A stretch of DNA of 35,514 nt from Lachnospiraceae bacterium (lineage in GTDB: Bacteria > Bacillota > Clostridia > Lachnospirales > Lachnospiraceae): positions 1 through 35,514 of the forward strand of contig JAQXZD010000034.1 in assembly GCA_029227035.1 (NCBI GenBank), given 5' to 3'. Below, piece after piece: positions 3,274 to 26,330 of this stretch. The notes beneath the pieces were generated by a model that was not told the origin of the DNA, did no database searches, and worked only from the letters and a program-made list of their open reading frames with translations. Position numbers and translations under genes: made by a program. The stretch's first letter is position 1. Each line of letters begins with the position of its first letter.

Positions 3274-4083
3274 GTGGAAAGTAATCAGGTGACCATCCTT
3301 GGAGCAAGAGGCAGCGTTCCCGTCAGCGGGGCGCAGTACTCTTTGTACGGTGGCGCGACGCCCTGTGTGCTGGTGGAGACAGATGCGGCGGCATTGGTAT
3401 TTGATGCAGGAACAGGCTTGAACAATTTACCGCAGCGTGTGATGAAAAAATATAAGAAACTGCATATTTTTTTATCGCATTTGCATCTGGACCATCTGCT
3501 TGGGATTCCCATGAGTCCGGTGCTGTTCGATGAATCCTTTGAGGTTGTTTTTTATGCGGAGGATGCCGGTGCAGCCAAAAATGCCTTGCGGCAGATGATG
3601 GAGAGACCTCTTTGGCCGGTAGGACCGGAGGTGTTTTCGGCGAAGGTTGATTTCAGGAGCATCGGAGAGGGCTCCTGCAGAATCCCGGACAGTCCGGTTA
3701 CAGTTCATGCAATGCGGACGGCTCACCCCGGGGGAGCATTGGCTTTTCGAACCGAATGGGAAGGGAAAAGTCTGGTGTACGCCACGGATTGCGAGCTGGA
3801 TGCTTCCGGCAGCAGACAGATGGAGAAATTTGCCGCAGATACACAGCTTTTTATTCTGGACGCACAATATACAAAAGAAGAATATGAAAAATGCAGAGGG
3901 TATGGACATTCTTATATACAGAATTCTGCAGCTGTGATTGAAGGCAGTCATGCAACGAGAGGGCTTTTGTTTCATCATGCACCGACGCACACGGATGAAC
4001 AACTGCAGGGTATGGAACAAAAGCTGCAGCAAAAGTGGAGCAACATTGGATTTGCAAAAGAAGGAGAACAGATACCGCTATGA
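3274..4083 (+). CDS. Metallo-beta-lactamase-fold hydrolase (cyclic phosphodiesterase-like)
   Basis: The 269-residue protein starts at GTG 3274 behind an AGGAG site (3262-3266). It opens with G-A-R-G-S-V-P-V and Y-G-G-A-T-P-C-V, the entry of the COG1235/Lactamase_B_2 type of the superfamily. The metal-binding motif H-L-H-L-D-H is at about residues 69-74, with further ligands likely in T-A-H-P-G-G, Y-A-T-D-C-E and H-H-A-P-T-H near residues 234-239. Relatives hydrolyse cyclic nucleotide or phosphoribosyl cyclic phosphate bonds and are often fused to signalling domains; the substrate here is not known. Its stop overlaps the start of the HD-GYP gene by 4 nt (ATGA), so the two are almost certainly translated together. 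That pairing makes a role in cyclic-nucleotide turnover plausible, but this is inference. Confidence 0.85.
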   Translation: MESNQVTILGARGSVPVSGAQYSLYGGATPCVLVETDAAALVFDAGTGLNNLPQRVMKKYKKLHIFLSHLHLDHLLGIPMSPVLFDESFEVVFYAEDAGAAKNALRQMMERPLWPVGPEVFSAKVDFRSIGEGSCRIPDSPVTVHAMRTAHPGGALAFRTEWEGKSLVYATDCELDASGSRQMEKFAADTQLFILDAQYTKEEYEKCRGYGHSYIQNSAAVIEGSHATRGLLFHHAPTHTDEQLQGMEQKLQQKWSNIGFAKEGEQIPL

Positions 4084-5528
4084 AAGAGGATGTACTTCAG
4101 AAAATTTTGAATGTTGGAATTGCATTGTCAAAGGAAAAGGATATCAATTGCCTCCTGGAACAAATTCTGACTGCGGCTATGGACATTACGAATTGTGATG
4201 CAGGAACCCTGTATATCAGGAACAAAGATGTTCTGGAATTTAAGATTATGATTACAAGATCCAGAGAAATTCATCAGGGCGGGAGCGGAGATGCGATTAC
4301 AATGCCTCCGGTGCCGTTGTCCCAGGAGAATGTCTGTGCCTGCGGGGTGTTGTATCACCATCTGATTAATATTCCGAGTGTGTATGTGGATTCCACTTAT
4401 GACTTTTCAGGTCCTCGGAAATATGATGCTCTTACCGGATATCAGACCCAAACCATGATGGTTGTTCCGATGGAGGATGATAACGGCAGAGTCATCGGTG
4501 TGCTGCAACTGATTAATGCGATGGATGATGAGGGCAATGTCATCTCATTTCAAAAAGAGTATGAGCAGATTATTTTATCCCTGAGTTCACAGGCGGCAAT
4601 CTGCCTGATGAACCGGAAATATGCTCTGCGAATTATAGAAATGTTGGATTCCTTTGTGGGAGTTATGACGACGGCGATTGATGAGAGATCTTCGTATACT
4701 GCAAATCATACACGGAATATGGCAGCCTATGCAGAGAACTTTGTGGAGTGGCTGAATCGACAGGAAACAGACTGGACTTTTAGCGAAAAAGAAAAGTATG
4801 TTTTTATGATGAGTGTGCGGCTGCATGATATCGGAAAACTGATTACCCCTGCGGAGATTATGGATAAGCAGGACCGGTTGGGAAACAATTATGTCAAGGT
4901 GATGGACCGTCTGGAAAAAATCCGGTTACTGACAAGAATTGCAAGGCTTCAGAAAGACATTGGAGAAAAAGAAGAGCAGGAGCTTTTGCATAAGGTACAG
5001 AGTGCAAAAGACCTGGTAGATAAAGTGAATAAAACAGGGTATCTGACGGATGAACTGGCAGAACAGATAGAGGTACTGTCGGAACAGACCTATCGGGAAG
5101 AAGACGGCACGGAATATCCGTGGATTACCCCGGAGGAAAAGGAACAGCTTTTGATTCGCAAGGGAACACTAACGAAGGAAGAACGTCAGATTATGCAGGA
5201 ACACGTGGAAATGACACGGGTTATGCTGGAACAGATGGCGTTTGGGGAAGAGTATAAGGATGTTGTGACTTTTGCGGCGCAGCATCATGAGCGTCTCAAC
5301 GGAAGCGGTTACCCGAAGGGATTAAAGGCGGACAAAATCGGAAAAGAAGTTCGCCTTTTGGCGATTATTGATATATTTGAGGCACTGACGGCGAGAGACC
5401 GTCCTTACAAAAAGGCGATGCCTGCAGAGAAAGCACTGGGTATTTTGTACGATATGGCACAGCAGGGCGAACTTGATGCGGAGATACTGGCGTTGTTTGA
5501 ACAGAGCAAGGCATGGCAATGCGAATAG
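4080..5528 (+). CDS. GAF + HD-GYP cyclic-di-GMP phosphodiesterase
   Basis: The 482-residue cytoplasmic protein has an N-terminal GAF domain (about residues 15-165, with C-D-A-G-T-L-Y and V-I-G-V-L-Q-L-I-N-A) and a C-terminal HD-GYP domain. The metal site is visible as H-T-R-N-M near residue 217, H-D-I-G-K at 249-253, and H-H-E-R-L-N-G-S-G-Y-P from residue 402. HD-GYP domains linearise c-di-GMP and often hydrolyse pGpG. About 150 residues separate the HD pair from the HHE motif, where about 65-70 is usual, so there is an insert of roughly 85 charged residues between D-K-Q-D-R-L and K-G-T-L-T-K-E-E-R. ATG 4080 is chosen over an upstream TTG at 4035 because GGAG lies at normal distance and the start couples to the previous stop. 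The GAF ligand is unknown. Confidence 0.92.
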   Translation: MKEDVLQKILNVGIALSKEKDINCLLEQILTAAMDITNCDAGTLYIRNKDVLEFKIMITRSREIHQGGSGDAITMPPVPLSQENVCACGVLYHHLINIPSVYVDSTYDFSGPRKYDALTGYQTQTMMVVPMEDDNGRVIGVLQLINAMDDEGNVISFQKEYEQIILSLSSQAAICLMNRKYALRIIEMLDSFVGVMTTAIDERSSYTANHTRNMAAYAENFVEWLNRQETDWTFSEKEKYVFMMSVRLHDIGKLITPAEIMDKQDRLGNNYVKVMDRLEKIRLLTRIARLQKDIGEKEEQELLHKVQSAKDLVDKVNKTGYLTDELAEQIEVLSEQTYREEDGTEYPWITPEEKEQLLIRKGTLTKEERQIMQEHVEMTRVMLEQMAFGEEYKDVVTFAAQHHERLNGSGYPKGLKADKIGKEVRLLAIIDIFEALTARDRPYKKAMPAEKALGILYDMAQQGELDAEILALFEQSKAWQCE

Positions 5529-5560
5529 AATGTGATACAAAAGAGAGGAAAAACATAAAA

Positions 5561-7549
5561 ATGAAGAGAACGAAGGCAGGAAGACTGCTTAGCTTTCTGA
5601 TGAGTGTTTTATTGGTGATATCTGCGGCAGTACCGGTGCAGGCGGCCACGGCAAGGGCAACCACCATGAAGCTGGAAAAAACGGTGGGAAGTGTCAGCGT
5701 AAAGACACAGAGTGGTTCTGCGCGTAAGATTTCAGAAGGCATGCGTCTGTATAATGGCAATACCGTGAAGACCGCAAAGGCAAGTTATGCCTATATCAGT
5801 CTTGACAGCAGTAAAGCAGTAAAGCTGGATGAAAAATCAAAGACGACTCTCCGGCAAAAAAACAAAAAATTGGAGCTTCTGCTCAAGTCCGGCAAGTTGT
5901 TTTTTAACGTCAGTACAAAGTTGAAAGATGATGAGAGCATGAATGTCAGGACATCCACCATGGTTACCGGAGTCAGAGGAACCTGTGGAGTTGTGGAGAA
6001 TATATCCTCGGACAGCTCTAAGCTGTATCTGCTGGAAGGACGGGTTTCCTTAGGCGGGAAGAATCCGGTTACGGTTCATGGAGGACAGATGGCAACGGTA
6101 CAGGCATCCGCAAGCGGTGGTATAGTAGTGGAGACCATGAAGGAGACGGATATTCCGAAGTTTGCCATTGAAGAAGTATTAAAGGATCCGGCATTGCAGA
6201 AGCGGATAGAAGACACTACGGATTTAAGTGTTGAGAAGATGGAACAATATTTGAATTCGGAAAGTGATGCTTCGGAGGAAGAAAAGCCGGAGGAACCATC
6301 CGTACCGGTTGTGCCGAGCGAACCGTCCGGGCCGAGTAATACGAACCCATCAAACCCATCCAATCCGGATACTTCAAAGCCGGAGGAGAAGGTGCCGACA
6401 AAAGTGGAAGTGACAGGAACCAATGGGACGGCACAGAATCTTCAGGATGCATTGGACAATGGGGATATTGTGACGATTGCAACAAACGCCAAAGTGCGCG
6501 TGAATGCCGGCGAGACCATCACGGTAGGACAGGATAAAAAACTGGTCATCGGTTCCGGTGCAACACTGTATCTGGCAAGCGGATCATGCTTGCAGATACA
6601 GGGCAAAGAAGGATTGCAACTGGACGGAACGATCGAAGGAAGCAGTGGTTACGGAACGATACAGTTGGGAAGCAGCGACGGCGCGGTCAAGGGAGAAATC
6701 CTGATCAATACCAGCGGGGCAATCCGGGCAGAACAGATAAATCTGAATAATGCAACATTGGAAAATCATGGACTGATTGACATAGGCAGTATGGAAAACA
6801 AAGGACAGGCTGAAATTGTCAACGGAGGATTGATTAAGTTAAAGAATGCATATACGAATACCGGCGCGGCGATTGGTACATACACCGGTACAAAAACAGG
6901 GGTACTTATCAGTAATGATAAGTCCACGGCAATGCCGGAGGATGCCTGCATGGCTCAAGCAGTGAATAATGGTACGGTTTCCGTAATCAAAGAGCGGTGG
7001 TTTTATGCAACGCATCTGAATGCAACCATGGAAAAGTATATGAGTGTCGGACAGGATGACGGGTTTGTGAGAGAAGACACGGATTGGTCTTTCTGCCGGG
7101 ATGTGGTTGTGGATGGGGACATTACCCTGTCCGATATGAGGGCAACTTTAAACGAACACAGTATACAGATAGAATCCGGAAACAGCCTGACTCTTACAAA
7201 TGCAGGTGAAATAACGGGACATGGAGAAGCCCTGATTAAAATGAAAGGCGGAACGCTGACATTGGATGCTACCGGAAATGCCGGAAATGCAGGAACGGCG
7301 GCAACAAGTCGATGTCTGAATAACTCCAACAGCACAGGCTATGTGATAGCAGTGGAACAGCCGTCGACGTTGAACTGGACAGATAAAGATCTTGTATTGC
7401 AGTCCCAAGGCTCTCTGGGACAGATTATTCAGGGACTGGATATCTCGAATCCGGACCAGTGTGCATGGGTGAACACTTCCGGGTACTCCATTGTGGGTCA
7501 GGATAAGGATGTCGGCAGTATATTGCAGTTGAATGCGTCTACACCATAA
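5561..7549 (+). CDS. Secreted FecR-domain protein with C-terminal solenoid
   Basis: The 662-residue product starts at ATG 5561, following GAGAGG (5543-5548); an in-frame ATG at 5513 lies inside the HD-GYP gene. A Sec signal peptide (K-R-T-K-A-G-R, hydrophobic core, cleavage near V-Q-A-A at 26-29) shows export. Residues about 38-190 form a FecR-like domain: G-S-V-S-V-K-T-Q-S-G, an L-Y-N-G-N-T-V-K-T turn, and the T-S-T-M-V-T-G-V-R-G-T stretch. A Pro/Ser/Asn-rich linker follows (about 230-275). The rest is Gly/Asn/Thr-rich with regularly spaced L-x-I, L-x-L and V-x-I strands, consistent with a beta-solenoid. There is no LPxTG or lipobox, so I cannot say how it stays on the surface. FecR-domain proteins are often paired with CHASE2 cyclases; the cyclase is next, 18 nt downstream. 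A sensor or ligand role is inferred. Confidence 0.82.
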   Translation: MKRTKAGRLLSFLMSVLLVISAAVPVQAATARATTMKLEKTVGSVSVKTQSGSARKISEGMRLYNGNTVKTAKASYAYISLDSSKAVKLDEKSKTTLRQKNKKLELLLKSGKLFFNVSTKLKDDESMNVRTSTMVTGVRGTCGVVENISSDSSKLYLLEGRVSLGGKNPVTVHGGQMATVQASASGGIVVETMKETDIPKFAIEEVLKDPALQKRIEDTTDLSVEKMEQYLNSESDASEEEKPEEPSVPVVPSEPSGPSNTNPSNPSNPDTSKPEEKVPTKVEVTGTNGTAQNLQDALDNGDIVTIATNAKVRVNAGETITVGQDKKLVIGSGATLYLASGSCLQIQGKEGLQLDGTIEGSSGYGTIQLGSSDGAVKGEILINTSGAIRAEQINLNNATLENHGLIDIGSMENKGQAEIVNGGLIKLKNAYTNTGAAIGTYTGTKTGVLISNDKSTAMPEDACMAQAVNNGTVSVIKERWFYATHLNATMEKYMSVGQDDGFVREDTDWSFCRDVVVDGDITLSDMRATLNEHSIQIESGNSLTLTNAGEITGHGEALIKMKGGTLTLDATGNAGNAGTAATSRCLNNSNSTGYVIAVEQPSTLNWTDKDLVLQSQGSLGQIIQGLDISNPDQCAWVNTSGYSIVGQDKDVGSILQLNASTP

Positions 7550-7567
7550 CCAAAAGGAGAAGTTCTC

Positions 7568-9352
7568 ATGAAAAAACGTCGGAGAAATCTTATAGGGAGT
7601 GTGGCGGCAGGTCTGTTTTTCGCTTTTTTATGTGCCAAAGGCATGTTATATGCGCAGGATTCCTATATGGCAGATGCGCTGTATCAAAGACCGGTTCCGC
7701 AGAATGGAGAGATTGTACTGATCAATATCGACCGGGAGAGCCTTGAGGAGCTTGGACCGTTTGCATCTTGGGGAAGAGCACTGATGGGCGATGTGGTCAA
7801 CACCTTAAATCAGGATCCGGAGACGGCACCGGCGGTCATAGGTATTGATGTGCTTTATGTGGGAGAATCCGACGATCCGGACGGGGATGCTTTCTTTGCG
7901 GAGGCATGCGAAAAGGGATGTCCGGTGGTGACGGCCTGTGCAGGGACTTTCGGTACGGACCTGATCGAGGAAACGGATGCGGTTACGGCGTTTGACGAGC
8001 CTTATGAGGCACTGAAAAATGCAACGTGGCAGGGGCATATCAATTCCATGTTTGATGCAGACGGAATTCTGCGTCATGGAATCTGGCAGGTGGATTTGCC
8101 GGATGGAAGACAGATTCCGTCTTTTCACCGGCAGATTTATGAGCAGTATTGTAAGCAGACCGGCAGGAAAGCGGATACGGTTCCGTATTGTGATCGGAAT
8201 TATTGCTATTATGTGTCGTTTCAGGGGAAGCCCGGAGCATACGATGACGGATATAACGTGGTGGAGCTGTTGAATGGGGAAATAGATCCGGAGGCCTATG
8301 CCGGAAAAATTGTGTTGATTGGACCGTATGCCGCCGGGATGCAGGACGATTTTACGACGGCTGCCGATCATGCAAGTAAGATGTACGGTATTGAATATCA
8401 GGCAAATATGATTGATGCGCTTTTGCAGGGAACCACAAAACGTGAAGCGTCAGGCATGCCGCAGGCACTGGCGGTATTTCTGGTAAGTGTGCTCTGCGGA
8501 TTGTTTTTCTATAACCGGAGTTTACTTCCTTCTCTTGCGGTATGGCTTGGGACGATTCTGGGCTATTTGGGAATCTGTTACGGAGCCTGTGAGGGAGGAA
8601 TCATATTGTCACCGTTATACATTCCTCTGGCTGTATCTGCCATGTTTGTGTTTCAAATGGCATCGAACTATGTGCGTACAGCCGTGGAAAAAAGAAGGGT
8701 GACGGCTACTTTTCAGCGTTATGTGGCACCGGAGATTGTCTCGGAGCTTCTGAAGGAAGGCTCCGGCGCAGAGGAACTTGGCGGAAAGCTGTGTAAAATA
8801 GCAGTTCTTTTTGTAGATATCCGCGGATTTACTGCCATGTCGGAAGCCTTGACACCGGAAGAGGTGGTTCGGATTCTGAATCGTTATCTGTCGCTGACAA
8901 CGTCCTGTATCTTTGAGAATGGCGGGACCTTGGATAAGTTTGTCGGAGATTGTACAATGGCATTCTGGGGTGCGCCGCTGCCGCAGGAGGACAGTATTTA
9001 CAAAGCGGTGAAGACGGCGTTTGACATGATGGAGAAATCCCGGGAGCTGCAGACGGTTTTGCAGGAAAAATTCGGAAGAACCGTGAGTTTTGGAATCGGA
9101 ATTCATTACGGAGAGGCTGTAGTCGGAAACATTGGAGCGAAAAACCGGATGGACTATACGGCAATCGGTGACACGGTCAATACCGCGGCAAGACTGGAAT
9201 CCAATGCACCGGGAGGCTGTATCTATGTCAGCCGGGAGGTTGCGGATGCGCTGAAAGACCGTGTGCGGTTTACTTCTCTGGGAGACAGTGTTCGGCTGAA
9301 GGGAAAGGCCGCGGGTTTTGAAGTCTTACGCGCAGAAGAATTGCTATCATAA
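7568..9352 (+). CDS. CHASE2-domain class III adenylate cyclase
   Basis: The 594-residue membrane enzyme starts at ATG 7568 after AAAGGAGAAG. One N-terminal helix (about residues 8-28) is followed by an extracytoplasmic CHASE2 sensor (about 30-290, with I-V-L-I-N-I-D-R-E-S, A-V-I-G-I-D-V-L-Y and G-K-I-V-L-I-G). Three more helices (about 298-370) lead to a cytoplasmic cyclase domain (about 405-590). Metal-binding Asp417 (F-V-D-I-R-G-F) and Asp461 (F-V-G-D-C) are present, as are Lys457 and Thr531 (Y-T-A-I-G-D), the adenine-selecting pair of class IIIb cyclases, and Asn538 and Arg542 (transition-state residues). ATP to cAMP is therefore the expected reaction. It lies between two exported proteins (FecR-solenoid and NHL propeller), which are candidate partners for CHASE2. 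Confidence 0.93.
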   Translation: MKKRRRNLIGSVAAGLFFAFLCAKGMLYAQDSYMADALYQRPVPQNGEIVLINIDRESLEELGPFASWGRALMGDVVNTLNQDPETAPAVIGIDVLYVGESDDPDGDAFFAEACEKGCPVVTACAGTFGTDLIEETDAVTAFDEPYEALKNATWQGHINSMFDADGILRHGIWQVDLPDGRQIPSFHRQIYEQYCKQTGRKADTVPYCDRNYCYYVSFQGKPGAYDDGYNVVELLNGEIDPEAYAGKIVLIGPYAAGMQDDFTTAADHASKMYGIEYQANMIDALLQGTTKREASGMPQALAVFLVSVLCGLFFYNRSLLPSLAVWLGTILGYLGICYGACEGGIILSPLYIPLAVSAMFVFQMASNYVRTAVEKRRVTATFQRYVAPEIVSELLKEGSGAEELGGKLCKIAVLFVDIRGFTAMSEALTPEEVVRILNRYLSLTTSCIFENGGTLDKFVGDCTMAFWGAPLPQEDSIYKAVKTAFDMMEKSRELQTVLQEKFGRTVSFGIGIHYGEAVVGNIGAKNRMDYTAIGDTVNTAARLESNAPGGCIYVSREVADALKDRVRFTSLGDSVRLKGKAAGFEVLRAEELLS

Positions 9353-9364
9353 AGGAGCAGAAGA

Positions 9365-10348
9365 ATGAGAAAAAAAGGGATTATCTTTTTACTGGTGCTG
9401 ACGCTTTTGAGTACGGGAAGCTTTGCACGGACGGCGGAGGCACAGACAATCGCAGAAGACACGCAGAAAAGCAACAGTACAGTGGCACCGTCCGGAATTG
9501 CAAAGGACAAGAATGGCAGTATGTATATTGCAGACCGGTCTTATCATGTAATCCGCAGGCGCAGCAAGAGCGGAACCTATACCATACTCGCAGGGCAGGA
9601 AGGCAAATCGGGATACAAAGACGGCAGTGCAGAAAAAGCTCTGTTTTCCTCTCCGTGGGATATTGTATCGTATAAAAAAGGCTGGGCAGTTTCCGATACC
9701 GAGAATCATGTCATTCGTTATTGCAAGGGCGGCAAAGTGACCACACTTGCCGGTTCCGGGAAAAAGAGTTACAAATTCCAGAGGCCGACGGGACTTGCCG
9801 TCGGGAAAAACGGAGAACTGTATATTGCGGATACCGGAAAACATGTCATTTACAAAAGAGATAAGAATGGCAAAGTGACGGTATATGCAGGCAGCAAAAA
9901 GGGCTGTGCAGACGGAAAAGTAAAAAAGGCACGTTTTTGTGAGCCAACCGGATTGTATTATTACAAGGGAGCTCTTTATGTGGCAGACTCCGGCAATCAT
10001 AGGATTTGCAAGATTAAAGACGGCAAGGTGACCACTGTGGCAGGAAGCACAAAGGGGGTGGAAGGAGATGCCGTCGGCAGTGCAAAAAAAGCACGTTTTT
10101 CCAATCCGCAGGAGATAATCCTGTATAAGGATGTGATGTATATTGCAGATACCGGAAACGGTTCTGTAAAGAAGCTTTCCAAGGGAAAAGTGACAAGGCT
10201 GATTGGCGAATTTTCCATGGAGGACGGCAGAGGTCCGGCAGAGCCATGCGGCTTGATGATACAGGGCGGAAATCTGTATGTAGGGGACATTTTTTTGGAA
10301 GAACTGCTTGAAAAGCTATTGACAAATGTGGATATTCTGTTAGAATAA
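9365..10348 (+). CDS. Secreted NHL-repeat beta-propeller protein
   Basis: The 327-residue protein has a signal peptide (M-R-K-K-G plus a hydrophobic stretch, cleavage near A-E-A at about residue 25). It then carries five or six repeats of the NHL type. Each has a P-x-G-I/L-A segment, an L/M-Y-I-A-D-T/S-G-N/K-H-V/R-I core and a K-V-T-T-x-A-G-S tail. Repeats like these fold into a six-bladed propeller used for protein or ligand binding, without a conserved catalytic site. ATG 9365 lies 12 nt after the cyclase stop and follows AAAGGAG, so it belongs to the same operon. There is no lipobox cysteine and no anchor. Being co-transcribed with a CHASE2 cyclase and a FecR protein suggests a shared extracellular sensing role, which is inference. 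The promoter for rpsU lies inside its last codons. Confidence 0.82.
10319..10346 (+). promoter_or_regulatory. Promoter for rpsU inside the 3' end of the NHL gene
   Basis: TTGACA (10319-10324, perfect -35) and TAGAAT (10341-10346) are spaced 16 nt apart. This would start transcription about 60 nt before rpsU and gives the ribosomal gene its own expression, independent of the signalling operon. Confidence 0.65.
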
Positions 10349-10413: not shown

Positions 10414-10590
10414 ATGTCTAGTGTAATCGTAAAAGAGAATGAAACTTTGGATAGCGCATTACGTCGTTTCAAGAGAAACTGTGCTAAGGCTGGTATTCAG
10501 CAGGAGATTCGTAAAAGAGAACATTACGAGAAGCCAAGCGTAAAGCGTAAGAAGAAATCTGAAGCAGCTAGAAAAAGAAAATACAATTAA
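10414..10590 (+). CDS. rpsU: 30S ribosomal protein S21
   Basis: The 58-residue basic protein matches bacterial S21 throughout: [19 protein letters not shown] near the N-terminus, [10 protein letters not shown] in the middle, and the lysine/arginine-rich tail ending R-K-R-K-Y-N. S21 sits on the 30S platform and helps initiation. ATG 10414 is used because a strong GGAGGGAGG site ends about 10 nt upstream; an in-frame TTG at 10375 lies before that site. It is a single-gene unit with its own promoter and terminator. Confidence 0.98.
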
Positions 10591-10833: not shown

Positions 10834-11472
10834 TTAATACCCAAGGGATTCTCCCACAAGGATGACTTTGATGCGGTCCTTATTGCCGCTTCGTCTTGTG
10901 ACAACAATCTGATTGCAGATGCAGTCGGAAGAAAGGCAATCGGCGCAAGTACCGGTTGCGGCACATGGGGTATTCTTATGAAGACGGATACAGTTTGGAG
11001 AGGAAGCCTGACTGCGAACCCGGTGCATACCGTCTTCCACGGACGAAACCACTTTGTTGATTCCGACAATGAGAATGACCTGTTTCGGACCATAGATGAG
11101 GGAAGCAACGCGGTTGCCGTTTCCGTCGATATTGATTAATTCGCCGGAAGCTGTGATGGCGTTTGTGCTCATAAAATAGCAGTCGCAGGAGAGCGCCTCG
11201 TGCATAATCCGATTGACTTCTTCCGGAGAAGAGGCACTGTCACGGTCTAAAAGCGTGATATCTTCTTTTTCCCGAAGTGCATCAAGAATACCGGATTCTG
11301 CAAGCGTCATGGAGCCGCCGAAGGAGACAGAAGTTCCCGGTTTGGCAAAAGAAAGTGCTTTTTCGCAGGCTTCTTTTGCAGTGGCGCAGTAAAAGCCTTC
11401 CATCTGTCGTTTGGCAAGGTTTTGTATGATTGTTTTTGCAAGTGTTTCATGATATTGTTCTTTTACTGTCAT
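10834..11472 (-). CDS. LUD-domain (DUF162/LutC-like) protein
   Basis: The 212-residue minus-strand protein starts at 11472, behind a strong AGGAGG (complement of 11481-11486). It shows the LUD-domain order: N-terminal helices (Y-H-E-T-L-A-K-T-I-I-Q-N-L), the glycine loop V-S-F-G-G-S-M-T-L-A-E-S-G, L-L-D-R-D, S-T-N-A-I-T-A-S-G-E-L-I-N-I-D-G-N-G-N-R, and G-P-K-Q-V-I-L-I-V-G-I-N-K-V. LutC and related proteins take part in L-lactate oxidation with LutA and LutB, but stand-alone LUD proteins of this length are common in Clostridia with unknown roles, and no lutA or lutB lies nearby. A cysteine cluster near the C-terminus (about residues 169-187, C-A-A-T-G-T-C-A-D-C then S-S-D-C) could bind metal. 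It is transcribed away from the ABC gene, from its own promoter. Confidence 0.85.
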   Translation of the reverse strand: MTVKEQYHETLAKTIIQNLAKRQMEGFYCATAKEACEKALSFAKPGTSVSFGGSMTLAESGILDALREKEDITLLDRDSASSPEEVNRIMHEALSCDCYFMSTNAITASGELINIDGNGNRVASLIYGPKQVILIVGINKVVSSVEDGMHRVRSQASSPNCIRLHKNTPCAATGTCADCLSSDCICNQIVVTRRSGNKDRIKVILVGESLGY

Positions 11473-14847: not shown

Positions 14848-16584
14848 ATGGGCAGAATGTTTGGGCGCGGAGCGAAGAAGCGCCTGGGAGAGATATTAGT
14901 TGAAGATGGAATCGTCACAGACGAGCAGGTGAGCACTGCCTTAGAGGAGCAGAAAAAACCGGGAAACGAAGGCATGAAGCTGGGCGATGTGCTGGTAGAT
15001 ATGGGATACGTCACGGACATGCAGATGGCCGCCGCGCTGAGCAGACAGCTTGGATATGAAAAGGTTAATCTGTCGCAGGAGCGTGTCAGTGACACGGTCA
15101 TTAAGCTGGCGAACGAGTCTATACTCAGAAAGTACAGCGTTATGCCCTTTGGCTACAGTGAGAGAAATGCCAATGTGCTCAAGATGGCAATGAGTGATCC
15201 TCTGGATATCCGTGCGGTGGATGACATGATGGTGATTACGGGATGCCATCTGGAGATTTATATTACGACGCAGAGGGATATTGCGGCGGCAATCGACCGG
15301 TATTACGGAAATGCGGAGGCCATGAAGATGGCACAGCAGTTCTCCAAGGAACGGGAAGAGAGAGTTCCGGTACAGAGAAACCTGACGGAGCAGGTCGGCG
15401 GAGACAGCGCCTTAAATGACGCGCCGATTGTCAAGCTGGTACAGCAGGTTGTGGAGCAGGCAGTACATAAGAGAGCCAGCGATATCCATATTGAACCGTT
15501 TGAGGAGAAGTTACGAATCCGTTTCCGAATCGACGGTGTGCTGGAAGAAGAGATGGTGCATGACATTGAACTGCATGCGGCAATGATTGCACGTATCAAG
15601 ATTGTCAGCGGCATGGATATTTCCGAGAAGCGTAAGCCACAGGACGGAAGAATGACAGCCATGGTAGACAGACAGGAATATGATATCCGTGTATCCATGC
15701 TCCCGACGGTATACGGCGAGAAAGTCGTTATGCGACTTACCTTGAAAAAAGGACTGACAAAGGATAAAAAGGAATTGGGCTTTACGGATGAGGCGTTGGC
15801 GAAGTTCGACAAGATTCTGAGCCATCCAAACGGCATTATCCTGGTAACGGGACCTACCGGAAGCGGTAAGTCCACCACACTGTATACGGCGCTTAGCGAA
15901 CTGAATACGGAGGGTGTGAATATCGTCACGGTCGAGGATCCGGTGGAGGCGAATATCAACGGCATCAATCAGGTGCAGGTCAACGAGAAAGCAGGACTTA
16001 CATTTGCCAGCGCACTCCGTTCCATATTAAGACAGGATCCGGATATCATCATGATCGGAGAGATTCGAGATCAGGAGACGGCGGAGATTGCGGTCAAGGC
16101 ATCCATCACCGGACACCTGGTGGTATCCACACTGCATACCAACAGCGCAGCCAATACCATTACCAGACTGGCAGACATGGGCGTGGAGACCTATCTTCTC
16201 GCGGATTCTGTGGTGGGTGTTATCGCACAGAGACTGGTGCGTTGCGTATGTCCGGACTGCAGCAGCGAGTATGAGGCGGACGAGCGGGAAAAAGAGATAC
16301 TGGGTATCAAAGACAGCGCCCGCAAGATTACCCTGAGGAAAGCCCATTACAGAGACTGCCTGACCTGTAACGGAACCGGATACCGGGGACGAAAAGGTGT
16401 CTACGAGATTATGGAAGTCACGCCGGAGCTCAGACAGGCAATCAGCAAGGGCATGACCGCGGATGAAATCGAAGAGATTGCACTGCGGGAAGGAATGAAG
16501 ACACTTCGCGGCACCATTATAGAAGAAGTGCTTGCAGGTAACACCACCATGGACGAACTCAAGCGTGTTACCTATGACGAATAA
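14848..16584 (+). CDS. pilB: Type IV pilus assembly ATPase PilB
   Basis: The 578-residue cytoplasmic hexameric ATPase drives pilin polymerisation. The N-terminal MshEN domain (about residues 5-150, starting with L-G-E-I-L-V-E-D-G-I-V and L-G-D-V-L-V-D-M-G-Y-V) is of the type that binds c-di-GMP in some relatives. The T2SSE ATPase domain has Walker A G-P-T-G-S-G-K-S at 335-342, the acidic box around V-T-V-E-D-P-V-E, Walker B-like I-I-M-I-G-E-I-R-D, and a histidine box S-T-L-H-T-N. A zinc-type cysteine set is present (C-V-C-P-D-C and C-L-T-C-N-G-T-G-Y), typical of GspE/PilB and absent from PilT. ATG 14848 follows AGGGGGAG. It is the first gene of the pilus operon; pilT follows after 54 nt. Confidence 0.97.
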   Translation: MGRMFGRGAKKRLGEILVEDGIVTDEQVSTALEEQKKPGNEGMKLGDVLVDMGYVTDMQMAAALSRQLGYEKVNLSQERVSDTVIKLANESILRKYSVMPFGYSERNANVLKMAMSDPLDIRAVDDMMVITGCHLEIYITTQRDIAAAIDRYYGNAEAMKMAQQFSKEREERVPVQRNLTEQVGGDSALNDAPIVKLVQQVVEQAVHKRASDIHIEPFEEKLRIRFRIDGVLEEEMVHDIELHAAMIARIKIVSGMDISEKRKPQDGRMTAMVDRQEYDIRVSMLPTVYGEKVVMRLTLKKGLTKDKKELGFTDEALAKFDKILSHPNGIILVTGPTGSGKSTTLYTALSELNTEGVNIVTVEDPVEANINGINQVQVNEKAGLTFASALRSILRQDPDIIMIGEIRDQETAEIAVKASITGHLVVSTLHTNSAANTITRLADMGVETYLLADSVVGVIAQRLVRCVCPDCSSEYEADEREKEILGIKDSARKITLRKAHYRDCLTCNGTGYRGRKGVYEIMEVTPELRQAISKGMTADEIEEIALREGMKTLRGTIIEEVLAGNTTMDELKRVTYDE

Positions 16585-16638
16585 CAGTAACTGTTCAGAA
16601 CAGATACGAATAAAAAACAAATGGATGGAGAAGGAAAA

Positions 16639-17700
16639 ATGGAGACAACAATTGAAAGCCTGATGAGGTATACCAAGGCAAATGGGGCATCCGACCTGCA
16701 TATTACGGTCGGAATCAAGCCGAAGTGCCGTATCAACGGAACACTTGAGGCGATGGAAGAATTTGACAAAATCACACCGGAGGTATCCGAGGAGCTGGTG
16801 CGTTCCATGCTCAATCCCACCAGAGAGGAAGAACTCATGGAAAAGGGAGAGGTGGACTTCGCATTCGCCATACCGGGAATCGGAAGATTCCGTGTCAATG
16901 CGTTTAAACAGCGTGGCTCCTATGCAGCGGTATTGAGAACCGTGTCGGAGGAGATTCCCTCCGCAAAAAGTCTTGGAATTCCGCTGTCCGTTGTGGAACT
17001 GACCAAGAAAAAGAGAGGACTTGTCCTTGTGACGGGACCTACCGGAAGCGGTAAGTCCACCACACTGGCATCTTTAATAGAGATTATCAACAGGGAACAG
17101 AGCACCCATATCATTACCCTGGAAGATCCGATTGAGTATCTGCATGCACATCAGAAAGCAATCGTCAACCAGAGGGAAATCGGAATCGATACCAAGTCCT
17201 ATGCGAATGCGCTCCGTGCGGCACTTCGTGAGGATCCGGACGTCATTCTGGTTGGAGAGATGCGAGACCTGGATACTATCTCCACCGCCATCACTGCGGC
17301 AGAGACCGGCCATCTGGTATTCTCGACCTTACATACCATCGGAGCGGTGCCGACCATCGACCGTATTATCGATGTGTTCCCGCCGCATCAGCAGGATCAG
17401 ATTCGTGTGCAGCTTGCATCCGTGTTGGAATGTGTCATATCCCAGCAGCTTATGAAGACGGCGGACGGCAAGGGACGAGTGGCAGCCTTTGAGGTCATGC
17501 ATTCCACACCGGCCATCCAGAACCTGATTCGTGAGGCAAAGTCCCATCAGATACCGTCCATCATCCAGACCAGCAAGAAGCTTGGAATGGTACTTATGGA
17601 TGATTTCTTAATGGATTTGTATATTAAGCACAAGATAGATGGGGATACTGCCATTGAATATGCGCAGGATTCAGAAGCAATGGCGGCAAAAATGTTTTAG
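16639..17700 (+). CDS. pilT: Type IV pilus retraction ATPase PilT
   Basis: The 353-residue ATPase disassembles pili and powers twitching. It has the typical PilT length, an N-terminal A-S-D-L-H-I-T-V-G strand, Walker A G-P-T-G-S-G-K-S at 133-140, T-L-E-D-P-I-E-Y, V-I-L-V-G-E-M-R-D, and S-T-L-H-T-I. Near the C-terminus it has R-E-A-K-S-H-Q-I-P-S-I-I-Q-T, which marks PilT rather than PilB. There is no cysteine zinc motif. I chose ATG 16639 over the in-frame ATG at 16621, because GGAGAAGG (16626-16633) lies between them at correct spacing for the later start. Having pilT inside the assembly operon predicts active retraction. Confidence 0.95.
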   Translation: METTIESLMRYTKANGASDLHITVGIKPKCRINGTLEAMEEFDKITPEVSEELVRSMLNPTREEELMEKGEVDFAFAIPGIGRFRVNAFKQRGSYAAVLRTVSEEIPSAKSLGIPLSVVELTKKKRGLVLVTGPTGSGKSTTLASLIEIINREQSTHIITLEDPIEYLHAHQKAIVNQREIGIDTKSYANALRAALREDPDVILVGEMRDLDTISTAITAAETGHLVFSTLHTIGAVPTIDRIIDVFPPHQQDQIRVQLASVLECVISQQLMKTADGKGRVAAFEVMHSTPAIQNLIREAKSHQIPSIIQTSKKLGMVLMDDFLMDLYIKHKIDGDTAIEYAQDSEAMAAKMF

Positions 17701-17715
17701 GAAAGGATATGAAAG

Positions 17716-18930
17716 ATGGCTAGTTTTAAGTACGAGCTGATTACAAAAGAAGGCAAACGGAAAAAAGGAACCATCGACGCGGCAGATGAGGAAGCGGCAA
17801 GAAAAGACTTAAAGAGAGACGGGGCAACCATCGTATCGCTCGCTTCCGCAAGCGTGTTGGAGAAGGATATAGAGATTCATATTGGAAAAATAGTAAAGCC
17901 CAGGGAGATGAGTGTCTTCTGCAGACAGTTCCAGAGTGTGTTGAAGGCGGGAGTTACCGTTATTGAGGCGCTGGATATGCTGGCAGAGCAGACGGAGAAC
18001 AAAGCCTTCCGGAAGGCAATTGCAGAGTCGAGGGATTCGGTTAAAAAGGGTGAAACCCTGGCGGAATCCATGGCGCAGCATCCGAAAGTATTCCCGGAGA
18101 TTATGATACATATGGTGGCAGCGGGTGAAGCATCCGGAGGACTGGATATCGCCTTTGACCGTCTGGCATCTTACTTCGAGAAAAGCTCCAAGATATCGGG
18201 ACTGATTGTCAAGTCCATGATTTATCCGATTGTATTGATTTGTGTTATTGTGGTGATTGTCATTATCATGATGGTGAAGATTGTACCAACCTTTACAGCT
18301 AGTTTTGATCAGGTCGGAGGCGCAGAGCTTCCGGGTATCACAAAAGCGGTGATTGCGGTTAGTGATATGTTTTCACATAACTGGTATATTATGCTGGCGG
18401 TGATTTTTTTAGCAGTCTTTTTCATCAAAGGCTTCAAGAGTACGGAGCGTGGTGCCATCCTCTTCGGAAAGCTGGGACTCAGCTTGCCGCTGGTGGGGAA
18501 TCTCACCATCAAGAACGCATCGGCACAGTTTGCGCGAACCTTAAGTACGCTGATGGCATCCGGTATCTCCGTGGTGGAGGGTATTGGGATTGTCGAGAAG
18601 ATTATCAAAAATCAGATTGTAAAGCAGGTCTTAAAGCGGGCAAAAAAGCAGGTCACGGAAGGTGTGGCGCTTTCGATTCCGTTGGAGGAGAGCGGAGTCT
18701 TTCCACCGATGGTGTACCATATGATCAGAATCGGTGAGGACACCGGTAATATGGAAGAGATGCTGGAAAAGATCGCGGATTATTACGATGAGGAAGTGGA
18801 GATGGCAACAGAGTCCCTTCTGGCAGCGATGGAACCGCTGATCATTATTTTGATGGCAGTGATTGTAGTACCGATAGTCCTTGCCATTATGCTTCCGATG
18901 TACTCACTTTACGATGCTATCGGAGCCTAA
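17716..18930 (+). CDS. pilC: Type IV pilus inner-membrane platform protein PilC
   Basis: The 404-residue membrane protein has the two T2SSF domains of GspF/PilC. The first (about 70-195) holds F-C-R-Q-F-Q-S-V-L-K-A-G-V and the second (about 270-395) holds F-A-R-T-L-S-T-L-M-A-S-G-I, each followed by G-E-A-S-G or G-E-D-T-G turns. Membrane helices lie at about 170-195, 217-240 and 375-400. It links the ATPases to the growing pilus. ATG 17716 follows GAAAGGAT and lies 15 nt after pilT. All parts look intact. A hairpin follows before pilA. Confidence 0.95.
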   Translation: MASFKYELITKEGKRKKGTIDAADEEAARKDLKRDGATIVSLASASVLEKDIEIHIGKIVKPREMSVFCRQFQSVLKAGVTVIEALDMLAEQTENKAFRKAIAESRDSVKKGETLAESMAQHPKVFPEIMIHMVAAGEASGGLDIAFDRLASYFEKSSKISGLIVKSMIYPIVLICVIVVIVIIMMVKIVPTFTASFDQVGGAELPGITKAVIAVSDMFSHNWYIMLAVIFLAVFFIKGFKSTERGAILFGKLGLSLPLVGNLTIKNASAQFARTLSTLMASGISVVEGIGIVEKIIKNQIVKQVLKRAKKQVTEGVALSIPLEESGVFPPMVYHMIRIGEDTGNMEEMLEKIADYYDEEVEMATESLLAAMEPLIIILMAVIVVPIVLAIMLPMYSLYDAIGA

Positions 18931-18941
18931 TCAGGTTGTCG

Positions 18942-18961
18942 GCAGTCTGCCATGAGACTGC
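18942..18961 (+). promoter_or_regulatory. Hairpin between pilC and pilA
   Basis: GCAGTCT (18942-18948) and AGACTGC (18955-18961) form a perfect 7-bp stem with a 6-nt loop. No T tract follows, so it is not a standard terminator. It could stabilise the 5' end of a processed pilA message or pause transcription. The stretch up to the pilA start is AT-rich, but I see no convincing -35/-10 pair there. Confidence 0.45.
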
Positions 18962-19019
18962 TTGATATACATAGTAACTTATATTTATTTAATGTGAAAA
19001 AAGAAAGGGGTAAACAGAA

Positions 19020-19508
19020 ATGAAAAAGTTACAGAACAAATTACAGGAAAAGTTACAGAACAGAAAGCAGAACAACAAAGGTTTTTCTCTCGTGGAGCTG
19101 ATTATCGTTATTGCGATTATGGCAATCCTTGTGGGAATCGTAGGTACACAGGTAATTCCTTATATCAATAAGTCTAGGGAATCTAAGGATCAGCAGATTA
19201 TTAGTAGTTATTGTACTGCAGCAGTATCGGCTTATTCTAGCAATGCAGGTTCACTTAATAAGCCAGCAGATCCGCTGACTCTTGAGGTATATGCAGGTAC
19301 CGTTACAGGTGATGCAGCTGATGGTGCGAAAGTAATAAGCGATATTAAGAATTATACATATTCAGCGCTTCCAACAGCTAAGTTCTCATCTCCGGAAGGT
19401 AAAAAAATTACAGAAATTGAGATTAAAATTAATCCAACTGCACATACAGTTGAGGCTAAAGGAGTAGGTGCAACAGGTGATTTCGCAACTGTTAAGGGTG
19501 ATTTATAA
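19020..19508 (+). CDS. pilA: Major type IV pilin PilA
   Basis: The 162-residue prepilin has a 21-residue leader ending in glycine and the cleavage/methylation motif G-F-S-L-V-E-L, with Glu at +5. A hydrophobic helix follows (V-E-L-I-I-V-I-A-I-M-A-I-L-V-G), then a globular part rich in Ala, Thr, Gly and Lys. The leader is longer than the usual 6-10 residues and repetitive (K-L-Q-N, K-L-Q-E, K-L-Q-N). The mature part has one cysteine, so no disulfide-bonded loop. I call it the major pilin because it is short, has a strong GAAAGGGG ribosome site, and uses codons unlike its neighbours (more AT-ending), as in highly expressed genes; this is inference. It sits between pilC and the peptidase gene. 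Confidence 0.92.
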   Translation: MKKLQNKLQEKLQNRKQNNKGFSLVELIIVIAIMAILVGIVGTQVIPYINKSRESKDQQIISSYCTAAVSAYSSNAGSLNKPADPLTLEVYAGTVTGDAADGAKVISDIKNYTYSALPTAKFSSPEGKKITEIEIKINPTAHTVEAKGVGATGDFATVKGDL

Positions 19509-19549
19509 TTCATCGGTTCTAAGAGACTAAACAGAGGAGACAGACAACC

Positions 19550-20308
19550 ATGCCAGTACATATCACAATCATGCTCTACAGTATCATATTTCTCTTTGGA
19601 ATCGTCATCGGCAGCTTTTTAAATGTCTGCATTTACCGGATTCCAAAGAAGGAGAGTCTGATTCCAGGTTCTCACTGTATGGACTGTGGGCATAAGCTGT
19701 ACTGGTATGACCTGTTTCCGGTATTTTCTTATCTCTTACTAAAGGGTAGATGCCGGTACTGTGGCAGCAGAATTGCAAAGCAGTACCCACTGGTAGAACT
19801 TTTAAATGGGGTGTTCTATATGGTCGTTTTCATGGCAAATGGCTATAACCTTGGGAGCATTTTCTACTGCCTGATGACATCTGCCTTGTTAGTATTATCT
19901 GTGATTGATGAACGCACGTATGAGATTCCGCTCGGAGTGAATCTGTTCCTTCTGGTCATCGGAATCTTGTTTAGTGTATGGGACAGAACGAATCTTGTCA
20001 GTCATCTGATTGGATTTGTCTGTGTAAGTATTCCTCTGTATCTGCTTTTTCTGGTAACCGGAGGCAGGGCAATCGGAGGCGGAGATATCAAGCTGATGGC
20101 AGTCTGCGGACTGATTCTCGGCTGGAAAAATATTGTGCTGGCGTTTTTTATCGCCTGCATCTTAGGTTCTGTAATTCATGTGATTCGCATGAAGGTATCC
20201 CACGCAGAGCATATGCTGGCAATGGGACCTTATCTGGCGATGGGAGTCTGGATTACGGCACTGTTTGGTAATGCAATGATTGACTGGTATATGTCACTTT
20301 TGTTATAG
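19550..20308 (+). CDS. pilD: Prepilin peptidase PilD
   Basis: The 252-residue membrane aspartic protease (A24 family) cuts prepilin leaders after glycine and usually methylates the new N-terminus. It starts with the G-S-F-L-N-V-C-I-Y-R-I-P signature. The zinc-type pairs C-M-D-C-G and C-R-Y-C-G are present, so the methylase domain looks complete. The two catalytic aspartates are in V-I-D-E-R-T-Y-E-I-P and G-G-G-D-I-K-L-M. About seven hydrophobic spans are visible. ATG 19550 follows AGAGGAGA. It is the only prepilin peptidase in the window and should process all five prepilins here. Confidence 0.96.
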   Translation: MPVHITIMLYSIIFLFGIVIGSFLNVCIYRIPKKESLIPGSHCMDCGHKLYWYDLFPVFSYLLLKGRCRYCGSRIAKQYPLVELLNGVFYMVVFMANGYNLGSIFYCLMTSALLVLSVIDERTYEIPLGVNLFLLVIGILFSVWDRTNLVSHLIGFVCVSIPLYLLFLVTGGRAIGGGDIKLMAVCGLILGWKNIVLAFFIACILGSVIHVIRMKVSHAEHMLAMGPYLAMGVWITALFGNAMIDWYMSLLL

Positions 20309-20314
20309 AGGTGT

Positions 20315-20369
20315 TTGTTCTTTGATGTGAGGATTTTGGAACAATCAGCTTCTTCACATCAGAGAACAA
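20315..20369 (+). promoter_or_regulatory. Long hairpin between pilD and pilMN
   Basis: Bases 20315-20330 pair with 20354-20369 through 16 bp with one G-U pair, around a 23-nt loop. There is no T tract after it, so it does not look like a terminator. Its place just before the pilMN ribosome site suggests an RNA-processing or stability element. Confidence 0.6.
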
Positions 20370-20396
20370 CAGGAGAATGAGTAAAGGAGAAGTAAT

Positions 20397-22058
20397 ATGG
20401 CAACAAAAAAAGTCTTAAGTATTGAAGCAGGGGGAGTATGGAGCAAGGTCTGTCTTGTGGAAGCGAAGAGAGATATGCCTTTTGTTTATCAGGCATTTTA
20501 TTTCCAGACACCGGAGCATGCGGTGGAGGATGGGTATATCCGTGATAAGGATGCTTTTGCATCAGAGCTTCGGGCAGAGCTGGGACAGCGTGGAATTGAG
20601 GAACGGAATGTCATTATTACCGTCAATTCTTCCCGCGTGGTAACCAGAGAGGTGGAGATTCCACTGGTAAAGGATAAGGAGATTGACGGCGTGATCCAGT
20701 CTCAGCTTAAGGATTATTTCCCGATGGATGTCTCCAGTTTTACCATCAGCCACAAGAAAGTGGGCGTTGTGGAGACACCGGAAGGCAAGCGCATGAAGCT
20801 GACACTGGTTGCCATTCCGGATAACCTGTTGCAGAATTATGTGAATTTTGCGGAAGAGAACGGCTTTGAGATTGAAAGCTTTGAGTATATCGGTAACAGT
20901 GCGGTTTCTTATCTGGTAAAGCATACGGCCGAGATGGCAATGATGGTACAGATGGAGGAACAGGCAACCATCATCAGTATCATTGCGGATAAGCAGCTTT
21001 TGTTCCAGCGTATCGCTCCTTACGGTTACGGCAATGCGATTTCCACGGTTCAGGAGCACCGCCTGAGCGGACTGGAGAATGATGCGGATATCTTCAATTA
21101 CCTGATTGAGCACAACGTCATGAGGGAAGAGCCGGAGTCTGAGGAACTGAAGGATACCTATGCGGATGTGGCAGAGTCTCTGGATTATCATGTGCGCATG
21201 GTAGAGACGGCTTTGGAATATTTTAAGAATGAGATGCGTTATGATTTTTCCGGTAAGATGTATCTGCTGGGAGACGGTGCCAGAATTGCGGGAATCCGGG
21301 ATCTTTTCTTCAAGGAAATTCCGATTCCTCTGGGAGATTTTTCTTACTCCACAATGATGAAGATTATGCCGTCGGCAAAGGCAGATATTGAGCGTTGGGG
21401 AGAGAGCGGTCTGCTTTCCGTTATCGGCTCTCCGATTGACAGTTTTGGAATTATGCCGAAGCAGTCCCATCTGGAAGAGGATAAGCAGGCGAAACTCAAG
21501 AATTCTTATGTGGTTCTGGTGGCTGCCGCAGCCATCAGTGTTGTGGTGATTGCAGCGGGAACGGTTCGCTGGGCACTGGCAAACAGTGAGCACAAGCGGC
21601 TGACGCAGCAGATTAACGAGATGAGTTATATTGAGGATGTCTATCAGGAGAATACGACGGCGAAGGCAGAGGCAACGCCGTATGTTCTTTTCGATTGCGC
21701 AACCCGTACCCCGAATGAAAAGTTCGGAGATCTGATTGCAGATCTGGAGGCACAGCTTCCGACGGATATTGTTGTGAGCAGTATTACCATTGACCAGAGT
21801 GTCCTTACCATCAATATGTCTTCTTCCACGAAGATGTCCGTGGCACAGATGCTTATGAATTTTGACGGCATTACCTATCTCTCCGGTGTCAGTGTTCCGT
21901 CCATTGTTGAGGAAGAGTCGGAGACAGGAGCCGTGAGATGGAATTATTCGGTTACGGCAAATTATGCACAGTCAATCACATATTCGGATGTGGAGATGCT
22001 TTTGGGAGTCCTTGGAACGGACGGTAGTACCGCCGCAGACACCGGGGCAGCACAGTAG
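20397..22058 (+). CDS. pilMN: PilM-PilN fusion, pilus alignment protein
   Basis: The 553-residue protein joins two proteins that are separate in Gram-negative bacteria. Residues 1-360 form an actin-like PilM domain (L-S-I-E-A-G-G-V-W-S-K start, V-N-S-S-R-V-V-T-R-E-V-E-I-P, I-Q-S-Q-L-K-D-Y-F-P, and G-D-G-A-R-I-A-G-I). A single membrane helix lies at about 370-393. A PilN-like part follows, with a short coiled stretch and a ferredoxin-like end domain (L-P-T-D-I-V-V-S-S-I-T-I). Clostridioides difficile has the same kind of fusion, called pilMN. The usual Asp of the first phosphate loop (D-I-G-S) reads Glu (E-A-G-G), so ATP binding may differ. It connects the cytoplasmic motor to PilO. ATG 20397 follows AAAGGAGAAG. 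Confidence 0.9.
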   Translation: MATKKVLSIEAGGVWSKVCLVEAKRDMPFVYQAFYFQTPEHAVEDGYIRDKDAFASELRAELGQRGIEERNVIITVNSSRVVTREVEIPLVKDKEIDGVIQSQLKDYFPMDVSSFTISHKKVGVVETPEGKRMKLTLVAIPDNLLQNYVNFAEENGFEIESFEYIGNSAVSYLVKHTAEMAMMVQMEEQATIISIIADKQLLFQRIAPYGYGNAISTVQEHRLSGLENDADIFNYLIEHNVMREEPESEELKDTYADVAESLDYHVRMVETALEYFKNEMRYDFSGKMYLLGDGARIAGIRDLFFKEIPIPLGDFSYSTMMKIMPSAKADIERWGESGLLSVIGSPIDSFGIMPKQSHLEEDKQAKLKNSYVVLVAAAAISVVVIAAGTVRWALANSEHKRLTQQINEMSYIEDVYQENTTAKAEATPYVLFDCATRTPNEKFGDLIADLEAQLPTDIVVSSITIDQSVLTINMSSSTKMSVAQMLMNFDGITYLSGVSVPSIVEEESETGAVRWNYSVTANYAQSITYSDVEMLLGVLGTDGSTAADTGAAQ

Positions 22059-22083
22059 GAGATAGGTTGGGAGGATAAAGACT

Positions 22084-22845: not shown

Positions 22846-22856
22846 GAGGAGGCACT

Positions 22857-24080: not shown

Positions 24081-24083
24081 CCG

Positions 24084-26327: not shown

Positions 26328-26330
26328 GGT

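Follow-up and report, generated by a model that had tools for sequence, protein, structure and literature searches.

A Recurring CHASE2 Adenylate Cyclase Gene Module of Clostridia Predicted to Relay an Envelope Cue Through cAMP to c-di-GMP

A Five-Gene Module and Its Proposed Function

Five contiguous genes of a Lachnospiraceae bacterium constitute a unit whose content recurs in Clostridia, with variable gene order and with one optional member. They lie at positions 3274–10348, on the + strand, of the 35,514-nucleotide (nt) stretch analyzed here (the window; contig C34, positions 1–35514, accession JAQXZD010000034.1), and they code for a metallo-β-lactamase (MBL)-fold hydrolase, a GAF-HD-GYP protein, a FecR-domain protein, a CHASE2 adenylate cyclase (AC), and an NHL-repeat protein, with spacings from -4 to 32 nt. 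Pfam domains in the five products were Lactamase_B_2, GAF and HD_5, FecR, CHASE2 and Guanylate_cyc, and NHL, respectively. We propose that the five genes form a single signaling unit that would relay an envelope cue through cyclic AMP (cAMP) to cyclic di-GMP (c-di-GMP), a proposal that we regard as evenly balanced between right and wrong. The evidence behind it was read from sequence: the parts, their intact catalytic residues, their repeated linkage, the exchange of domains, and gene fusions.

In the proposed relay, the exported FecR/beta-helix and NHL proteins would bind an extracellular cue (a glycan or wall polymer, perhaps); the bound cue would act on the CHASE2 domain, setting the activity of the cyclase (the cAMP writer); the MBL phosphodiesterase would degrade cAMP and shorten the signal (the eraser); and the GAF-HD-GYP protein would sense cAMP through its GAF domain, which would govern c-di-GMP hydrolysis by HD-GYP (the reader and output). 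Both cAMP assignments (MBL substrate and GAF ligand), c-di-GMP as the HD-GYP substrate, the cue-receptor role of FecR and NHL, and the direction of control are predictions. An earlier reading of the window from its letters (the original prediction) had described five co-directional genes, with gaps from a 4-nt overlap to 32 nt, acting as a two-messenger envelope-sensing unit. Coordinates, starts, and Pfam domains agree with the former description. The latter holds in that the unit recurs and contains a predicted cAMP maker and a c-di-GMP turnover enzyme, but it needs revision in that the MBL protein probably erases the same cAMP and the two messengers are probably serial.

To our knowledge, cAMP signaling in gut Clostridia has been little worked out. 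The module is a candidate for the production, removal, and reading of cAMP together in Lachnospiraceae and Oscillospiraceae, and it makes the conversion of one second messenger into another testable with few purified proteins.

Conservation of Gene Content and Gene Order

Two sets of loci were compared. For the family set, 200 family genomes, that of the window among them, were searched with AC; 47 gave a match, and a CHASE2-AC was counted in 36 (best E ≤ 7.2e-74), two of these matches being partial or split; stretches of up to 20 kb around the AC loci, together with four further CHASE2 matches, amounted to 40. For the named set, GTDB species genomes were scanned by pattern with an alignment of 26 cyclases and the best 80 of 576 loci were taken. 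Their record titles name Lachnospiraceae, Oscillospiraceae, and other Clostridia, and five contigs were common to the family set. An AC open reading frame (ORF) was called in 76 of the 80, and AC was flanked on both sides by 6 kb or more in 39.

In these 39 well-flanked named loci, counting same-strand genes no more than 6 kb away, a FecR gene was present in 32, a GAF protein with HD or GGDEF also in 32 (19 HD and 13 GGDEF), MBL in 26 (fused forms counted), MBL and GAF together in 23, and an NHL gene in 11. NHL is therefore a member in the window but an optional one elsewhere. Among typed same-strand genes, MBL immediately preceded HD-GYP whenever both were present (12/12 family and 24/24 named loci).

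Linkage was also apparent at the genome level. An MBL orthologue (E ≤ 1e-20) was found in 18 of the 200 family genomes, 16 of which had a CHASE2-AC, compared with 36/200 overall (Fisher p = 5e-12); likewise, AC was present in 26 of the 31 genomes with an HD-GYP orthologue (E ≤ 1e-60; Fisher p = 1e-19) and in 25 of the 27 with one above 300 bits (p = 4e-21), a cut picked after the list had been seen, and all three p values ignore phylogeny. Of the 19 MBL copies in the family, 15 had a cyclase no more than 8 kb away. The remaining four were on contigs of 3.8–7.8 kb, accompanied by HD-GYP and FecR (G006), by HD-GYP (G168), by FecR (G063), or alone (G048).

The neighborhood search across Clostridia that the original prediction had called for thus found the content conserved but not the order: MBL-HD-GYP-FecR-AC-NHL, as in the window, occurred in 4/76 named and 1/38 family loci (intervening other genes ignored). 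The association with alaS was not borne out, since no alaS match was found in the 120 other fetched stretches and alaS adjoins the module in the window only. Two considerations weigh against a single unit: gene order is permuted in many loci, and the named loci, being the best 80 of 576, are biased to close relatives.

In the AC tree, the nearest genus-named cyclase was that of Agathobacter sp. SUG487 (Lachnospiraceae). Genome G111 has two MBL-CHASE2-AC loci (C14 and C24, i.e., L035 and L060), the cyclases of which are far apart in the tree.

The Cyclase and the Exported Proteins

CHASE2 (PF05226) was detected in AC with 118.1 bits against a cut-off of 26.3 (E 6.6e-34), and Guanylate_cyc with E 3.7e-28. 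Residues D417, D461, K457, D529, N538, and R542, invariant across 26 aligned cyclases, are present in the window AC; we take them to be the two metal-binding Asp, the Lys/Asp adenine pair, and the Asn/Arg transition-state pair. Since metal, adenine, and catalytic residues are intact, the product should be cAMP. Hydropathy revealed one hydrophobic segment at residues 8–26 and three at about 296–362, which places CHASE2 outside the membrane.

On the input side, the FecR protein has a hydrophobic N-terminal segment resembling an export signal (residues 9–27), and its best Foldseek matches were the FecR-like anti-sigma domains of BDI_1681 and PupR, weak ones (E 0.007–0.02). The solenoid attributed to this protein by the original prediction was recovered as a beta-helix part, by a structural model and by fold search. 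Polysaccharide binding is frequent among beta-helices of this type, and a glycan or wall polymer as the cue is a guess. The NHL protein also has a hydrophobic N-terminal segment (residues 6–24).

Output Domain Exchange and Gene Fusions

The HD-GYP domains of the module share a subtype mark, an insert between the HD and GYP halves: the HDxGK-to-HHE spacing was 147–149 in 51/54 of them (47/50 without duplicate contigs) and 48–55 in 8/9 other HD-GYPs, the ninth (143) being a CHASE2-HD-GYP fusion. Among the 76 GAF proteins near AC (up to 8 kb away on either strand, counting duplicate contigs), 53 had HD, 20 GGDEF, and three neither, and a quick method placed three exchanges between HD-GYP and GGDEF on a tree of 108 cyclases. 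Separate GAF-GGDEF genes were found in L042 (same contig as L144), L127, L136, and L139. In other loci, mostly from Oscillospiraceae or unplaced Clostridia, a single MBL-GAF-GGDEF chain directly follows AC; profiles identified eight such chains, and Pfam recovered the architecture in L150 and L157. CHASE2-HD-GYP fusions bearing the insert were found at L069:9357-11411 (spacing 143) and L070:8413-10455 (spacing 148), the former followed by a FecR gene. As judged from their domains, the fusion chains connect CHASE2/FecR sensing and MBL to c-di-GMP turnover independently of gene order.

The genomes with these CHASE2-HD-GYP fusions (G002 and G086) have a further CHASE2 cyclase on another contig. 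At L067:9351-11291, a CHASE2-SpoIIE phosphatase fusion is located beside FecR and NHL.

Proposed Reading of cAMP by the GAF Domain

The window GAF gave 13 PDB matches (E ≤ 0.01), including CyaB2 (7.5e-13), PDE5 (3.1e-11), PDE2, PDE10, the GAF of Lcd1, and PmGH. Its nearest solved GAFs are cyclic-nucleotide binders, PmGH (an HD-GYP protein) being the sole other match. Since this GAF belongs to the CyaB2/PDE group, cAMP probably controls HD-GYP, and the GAF domain would probably read cAMP and link cAMP and c-di-GMP in series. The GAF of the L150 fusion matched CyaB2 (8.6e-20), PDE10 (4.3e-14), and the Lcd1 GAF 5w10 (1.4e-9). CyaB2 contacts cAMP through R291, T293, and D356, according to PMC4411481. 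In our own reading of the alignment, Thr and Asp matching T293 and D356 are kept in 56/57 HD-type GAFs (module GAFs without a following GGDEF).

Other features of this domain and of the genomes argue the opposite way. The counterpart of CyaB2 R291 is A or G in 56/57 HD-type GAFs in the same alignment reading. The NKFDE motif, conserved in most characterized GAFs that bind cyclic nucleotide monophosphates (cNMP; PMC4411481), is incomplete in the window GAF, which has N, F, and E, with A replacing K and no D; across HD-type GAFs, N is present in 56/57, F in 55/57, and E in 42/57, K is replaced by A in 48/57, and D is absent. GGDEF-type GAFs have N, K, F, and a D of the motif in 20/20. The match of the window GAF to 5w10, the Lcd1 GAF structure (PMC11800159), was weak (E 0.0035). 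In addition, a cNMP_binding protein scored over cut-off in 11 of 15 further genomes with the module, where cAMP may thus be read by other proteins. Finally, a protein with a cNMP-binding-like N-terminal and a PP2C/SpoIIE-like C-terminal part is encoded near AC in L051, L056, and L059, which belong to the TIM-barrel clade described below, and in L060, on the MBL side, where cNMP_binding was matched at that place; this protein is a candidate cAMP reader in these four loci.

The absence of K and D from HD-type GAFs, the cNMP_binding proteins, and the PP2C-like neighbor would all suit a scheme of parallel outputs, in which cAMP goes to CRP-type or cNMP-PP2C receptors, MBL erases it, and GAF-HD-GYP answers another ligand, the genes being co-regulated and the messengers not serial. 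We consider this unlikely, although it deserves serious attention. It does not readily explain why GAF is retained through the HD-GYP/GGDEF exchange or why the closest solved GAFs bind cNMP. Moreover, a CRP-type reader was not found everywhere the module is: four of the 15 genomes lack cNMP_binding over cut-off (three without a match and one with a weak match), and in the window's genome, 85.6% complete, none was found over cut-off and the only match (24.9 bits) was in a large ORF. Incomplete genomes may conceal such a protein. Reading of cAMP by the GAF domain, in series with c-di-GMP turnover, remains our preferred explanation.

Probable Removal of cAMP by the MBL Protein and a Possible TIM-Barrel Alternative

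The window MBL contains HxHxDH plus further ligands (H69, H71, D73, H74, H151, D172, and H234), as in class II phosphodiesterases, and GxRGS and YGGxT-like N-terminal motifs are common to 15 aligned module MBLs. Fold search matched it to YhfI, PDE1, and Apyc1; YhfI, Apyc1, and yeast PDE1 are class II (MBL-fold) phosphodiesterases (PMC9117128), from which the window MBL differs in showing only about 14–21% identity in alignments. Its best match both by sequence and by fold was RNase Z, not a cAMP phosphodiesterase, which counts against a role in cAMP removal, and its score against NF041851 (cyclic nucleotide-degrading phosphodiesterase) was 49.6 bits over residues 5–243, the curated cut-off being 400. 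Assignment as RNase Z was rejected: the TIGR02651 equivalog cut-off of 292.95 bits was not reached, and a true RNase Z is encoded elsewhere in the genome. Since the protein has the fold of class II phosphodiesterases, among which YhfI prefers cAMP/cGMP, and a separate true RNase Z exists, it is probably a cAMP remover, erasing cAMP made by the neighboring cyclase. Alternatively, it could cleave another phosphodiester (RNA ends, pGpG or a comparable cyclic dinucleotide product, or a cyclic phosphate), leaving the module with no dedicated cAMP eraser. The RNase Z match would fit this alternative, which in view of the class II fold and the linkage to AC we consider improbable.

Loci of the other main AC clade have no MBL; an AP_endonuc_2 TIM-barrel protein of 254–270 amino acids (aa) is encoded near AC (10/10 scanned). 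Of 36 family AC loci, 15 had the TIM barrel, 14 MBL, none both, and seven neither; these seven, of which three had 9 kb of flank on each side, count against the proposed unit. Nine residues were invariant in 12 TIM-barrel sequences (H64, H105, E144, D172, H175, H198 or H196, D207, H209, and E238) and align in HMMER alignments with the endonuclease IV pattern, which consists of nine zinc ligands. The TIM barrel may represent another type of phosphodiesterase, and possibly a new class; since the MBL/TIM swap was possibly one event, this is a lead only.

On a broader interpretation, the module would be a relay complete within one gene cluster, with exchangeable writer, eraser, reader, and output, in which the HD-GYP/GGDEF swap would invert the c-di-GMP response, the CHASE2-HD-GYP fusion would bypass cAMP, and the TIM-barrel eraser would represent an undescribed class of cyclic-nucleotide phosphodiesterases. 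We advance this tentatively, as conceivable rather than expected. The HD-GYP/GGDEF, MBL/TIM-barrel, and CHASE2 fusion variants provide natural controls.

Probable Substrate of the HD-GYP Domain

HD-GYP motifs are intact in the window protein (HDIGK at 249 and HHERLNGSGYP at 402), HD_5 scored 114 bits, and the PDB search matched PmGH (4mcw, E 2.4e-22). The substrate should be c-di-GMP; the window's genome gave 22 GGDEF matches, so that c-di-GMP is the likely pool. A relay ending in a different messenger, with another cyclic dinucleotide such as 3'3'-cyclic GMP-AMP (cGAMP) as substrate, is very improbable, given these 22 matches and the GGDEF domains that replace HD-GYP in relatives, even though the second-best PDB match was a 3'3'-cGAMP-specific phosphodiesterase (5z7c, E 2.3e-19).

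Comparison With Known Systems

The closest published system located is a Campylobacterota cluster composed of a CHASE2-AC, a phosphodiesterase said to cleave cAMP, FecR, and a TPR protein (PMC9239204). Both systems have a CHASE2 cyclase beside a candidate cAMP phosphodiesterase (in our case the putative role of MBL) and a FecR envelope protein. Compared by description, the Clostridia module differs in adding a GAF-HD-GYP or GAF-GGDEF enzyme and an NHL protein; moreover, a scan of its five genes and four neighbors in the window (E ≤ 0.01) detected no TPR domain.

Enzymes in which cAMP acts on c-di-GMP turnover have also been described. Tlr0485 of Thermosynechococcus is a cAMP-activated GAF-HD-GYP c-di-GMP phosphodiesterase (PMC8846402), likened here by description: GAF and HD-GYP are in a single protein in both, whereas the window enzyme adjoins a putative cAMP source and eraser and has an HD-GYP insert of about 100 residues. 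Lcd1 of Leptospira, a cAMP-activated GAF-GGDEF diguanylate cyclase (PMC8846402, PMC6717892), resembles the GAF-GGDEF proteins of L042, L127, L136, and L139 and the MBL-GAF-GGDEF fusions, and differs from the window enzyme, whose HD-GYP would catalyze the opposite reaction and whose GAF, unlike that of L150, is weakly similar. Bd1971 of Bdellovibrio is a cAMP-sensing EAL phosphodiesterase (PMC6717892); a direct wiring of cAMP to c-di-GMP removal is predicted for the module too, through GAF and HD-GYP instead of cNMP_binding and EAL. The parts of the module are familiar and their assembly uncommon but recurring; its combination, in Clostridia, with c-di-GMP enzymes that bear a GAF domain appears to be new as far as the open-licence literature searched goes. 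The statement of the original prediction that such a cluster was undescribed in Lachnospiraceae is consistent with the literature of this kind that was searched, the Campylobacterota cluster being a related one.

Organization of the Locus and Neighboring Genes

The window comes from a genome of 2.40 Mb in 121 contigs. Features of the module and of related loci are listed in Table 1. A GGAG- or GAGG-like ribosome-binding site could be read before all five starts in the printed sequence, and none of the 13 terminator-like sites detected in the window falls in the gaps of the cluster. Upstream, alaS ends at 3253, 20 nt short of where MBL starts, so that the two may be cotranscribed. Downstream, the module is bounded by rpsU (ATG at 10414).

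Table 1. Features of the module in the window and of selected proteins at related loci (prefixed with L).
Feature	Position	Strand	Basis or remark
MBL-fold hydrolase, 269 aa, probable class II cyclic-nucleotide phosphodiesterase (putative cAMP eraser)	3274..4083	+	GTG start
GAF-HD-GYP protein, 482 aa, probable cAMP-controlled c-di-GMP phosphodiesterase (predicted)	4080..5528	+	ATG 4080; overlaps MBL by 4 nt
GAF domain, residues 22-176, cyclic-nucleotide-binding GAF group	4143..4607	+	PDB sequence matches
Roughly 100-residue insert separating the HD and GYP halves; bounds approximate	4881..5139	+	Subtype mark; HDxGK-to-HHE spacing
FecR-domain protein, exported (predicted), 662 aa, C-terminal beta-helix	5561..7549	+	32-nt gap upstream
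FecR domain, residues 68-162	5762..6046	+	Pfam PF04773, 4.2e-10
Beta-solenoid part of FecR protein, residues about 281-450	6401..6910	+	Model and fold search
CHASE2 adenylate cyclase, 594 aa, 4 hydrophobic segments	7568..9352	+	18-nt gap upstream; Pfam and hydropathy
CHASE2 sensor domain, predicted outside membrane	7622..8494	+	Pfam; topology from hydropathy
Class III cyclase domain; D417, D461, K457, D529, N538, R542 present	8795..9307	+	Residues read in window protein
NHL-repeat protein, exported (predicted), 327 aa, optional member	9365..10348	+	12-nt gap upstream; Pfam NHL 9.1e-21
AP_endonuc_2 TIM-barrel protein near CHASE2 cyclase	L053:10786-11577		14 other family loci likewise
cNMP-binding/PP2C-like protein	L051:4590-5789, L056:7897-9075, L059:12451-13641, L060:3150-4514		Domain names by own reading

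A strong promoter-like site for rpsU (10319–10346, 11/12 matches) falls within the final codons of NHL. A LUD-domain protein (10834–11472, - strand) is encoded between the module and an ABC transporter. Type IV pilus genes occupy 14848–26834 and code for PilB with MshEN, PilT, PilC, pilin-like proteins, a prepilin peptidase, and PilM/PilN. PilB has two 24-residue stretches resembling the c-di-GMP-binding MshEN motif (compare PMC11731258), which makes it a possible c-di-GMP receptor about 4.5 kb from the module. The proximity of pilus genes to the module is not conserved, pilT/pilC-like genes being near AC in L044 and L051 only. After the pilus genes, a DUF5057 protein of 1236 aa is encoded at 28112–31822, followed by two ABC transporter genes.

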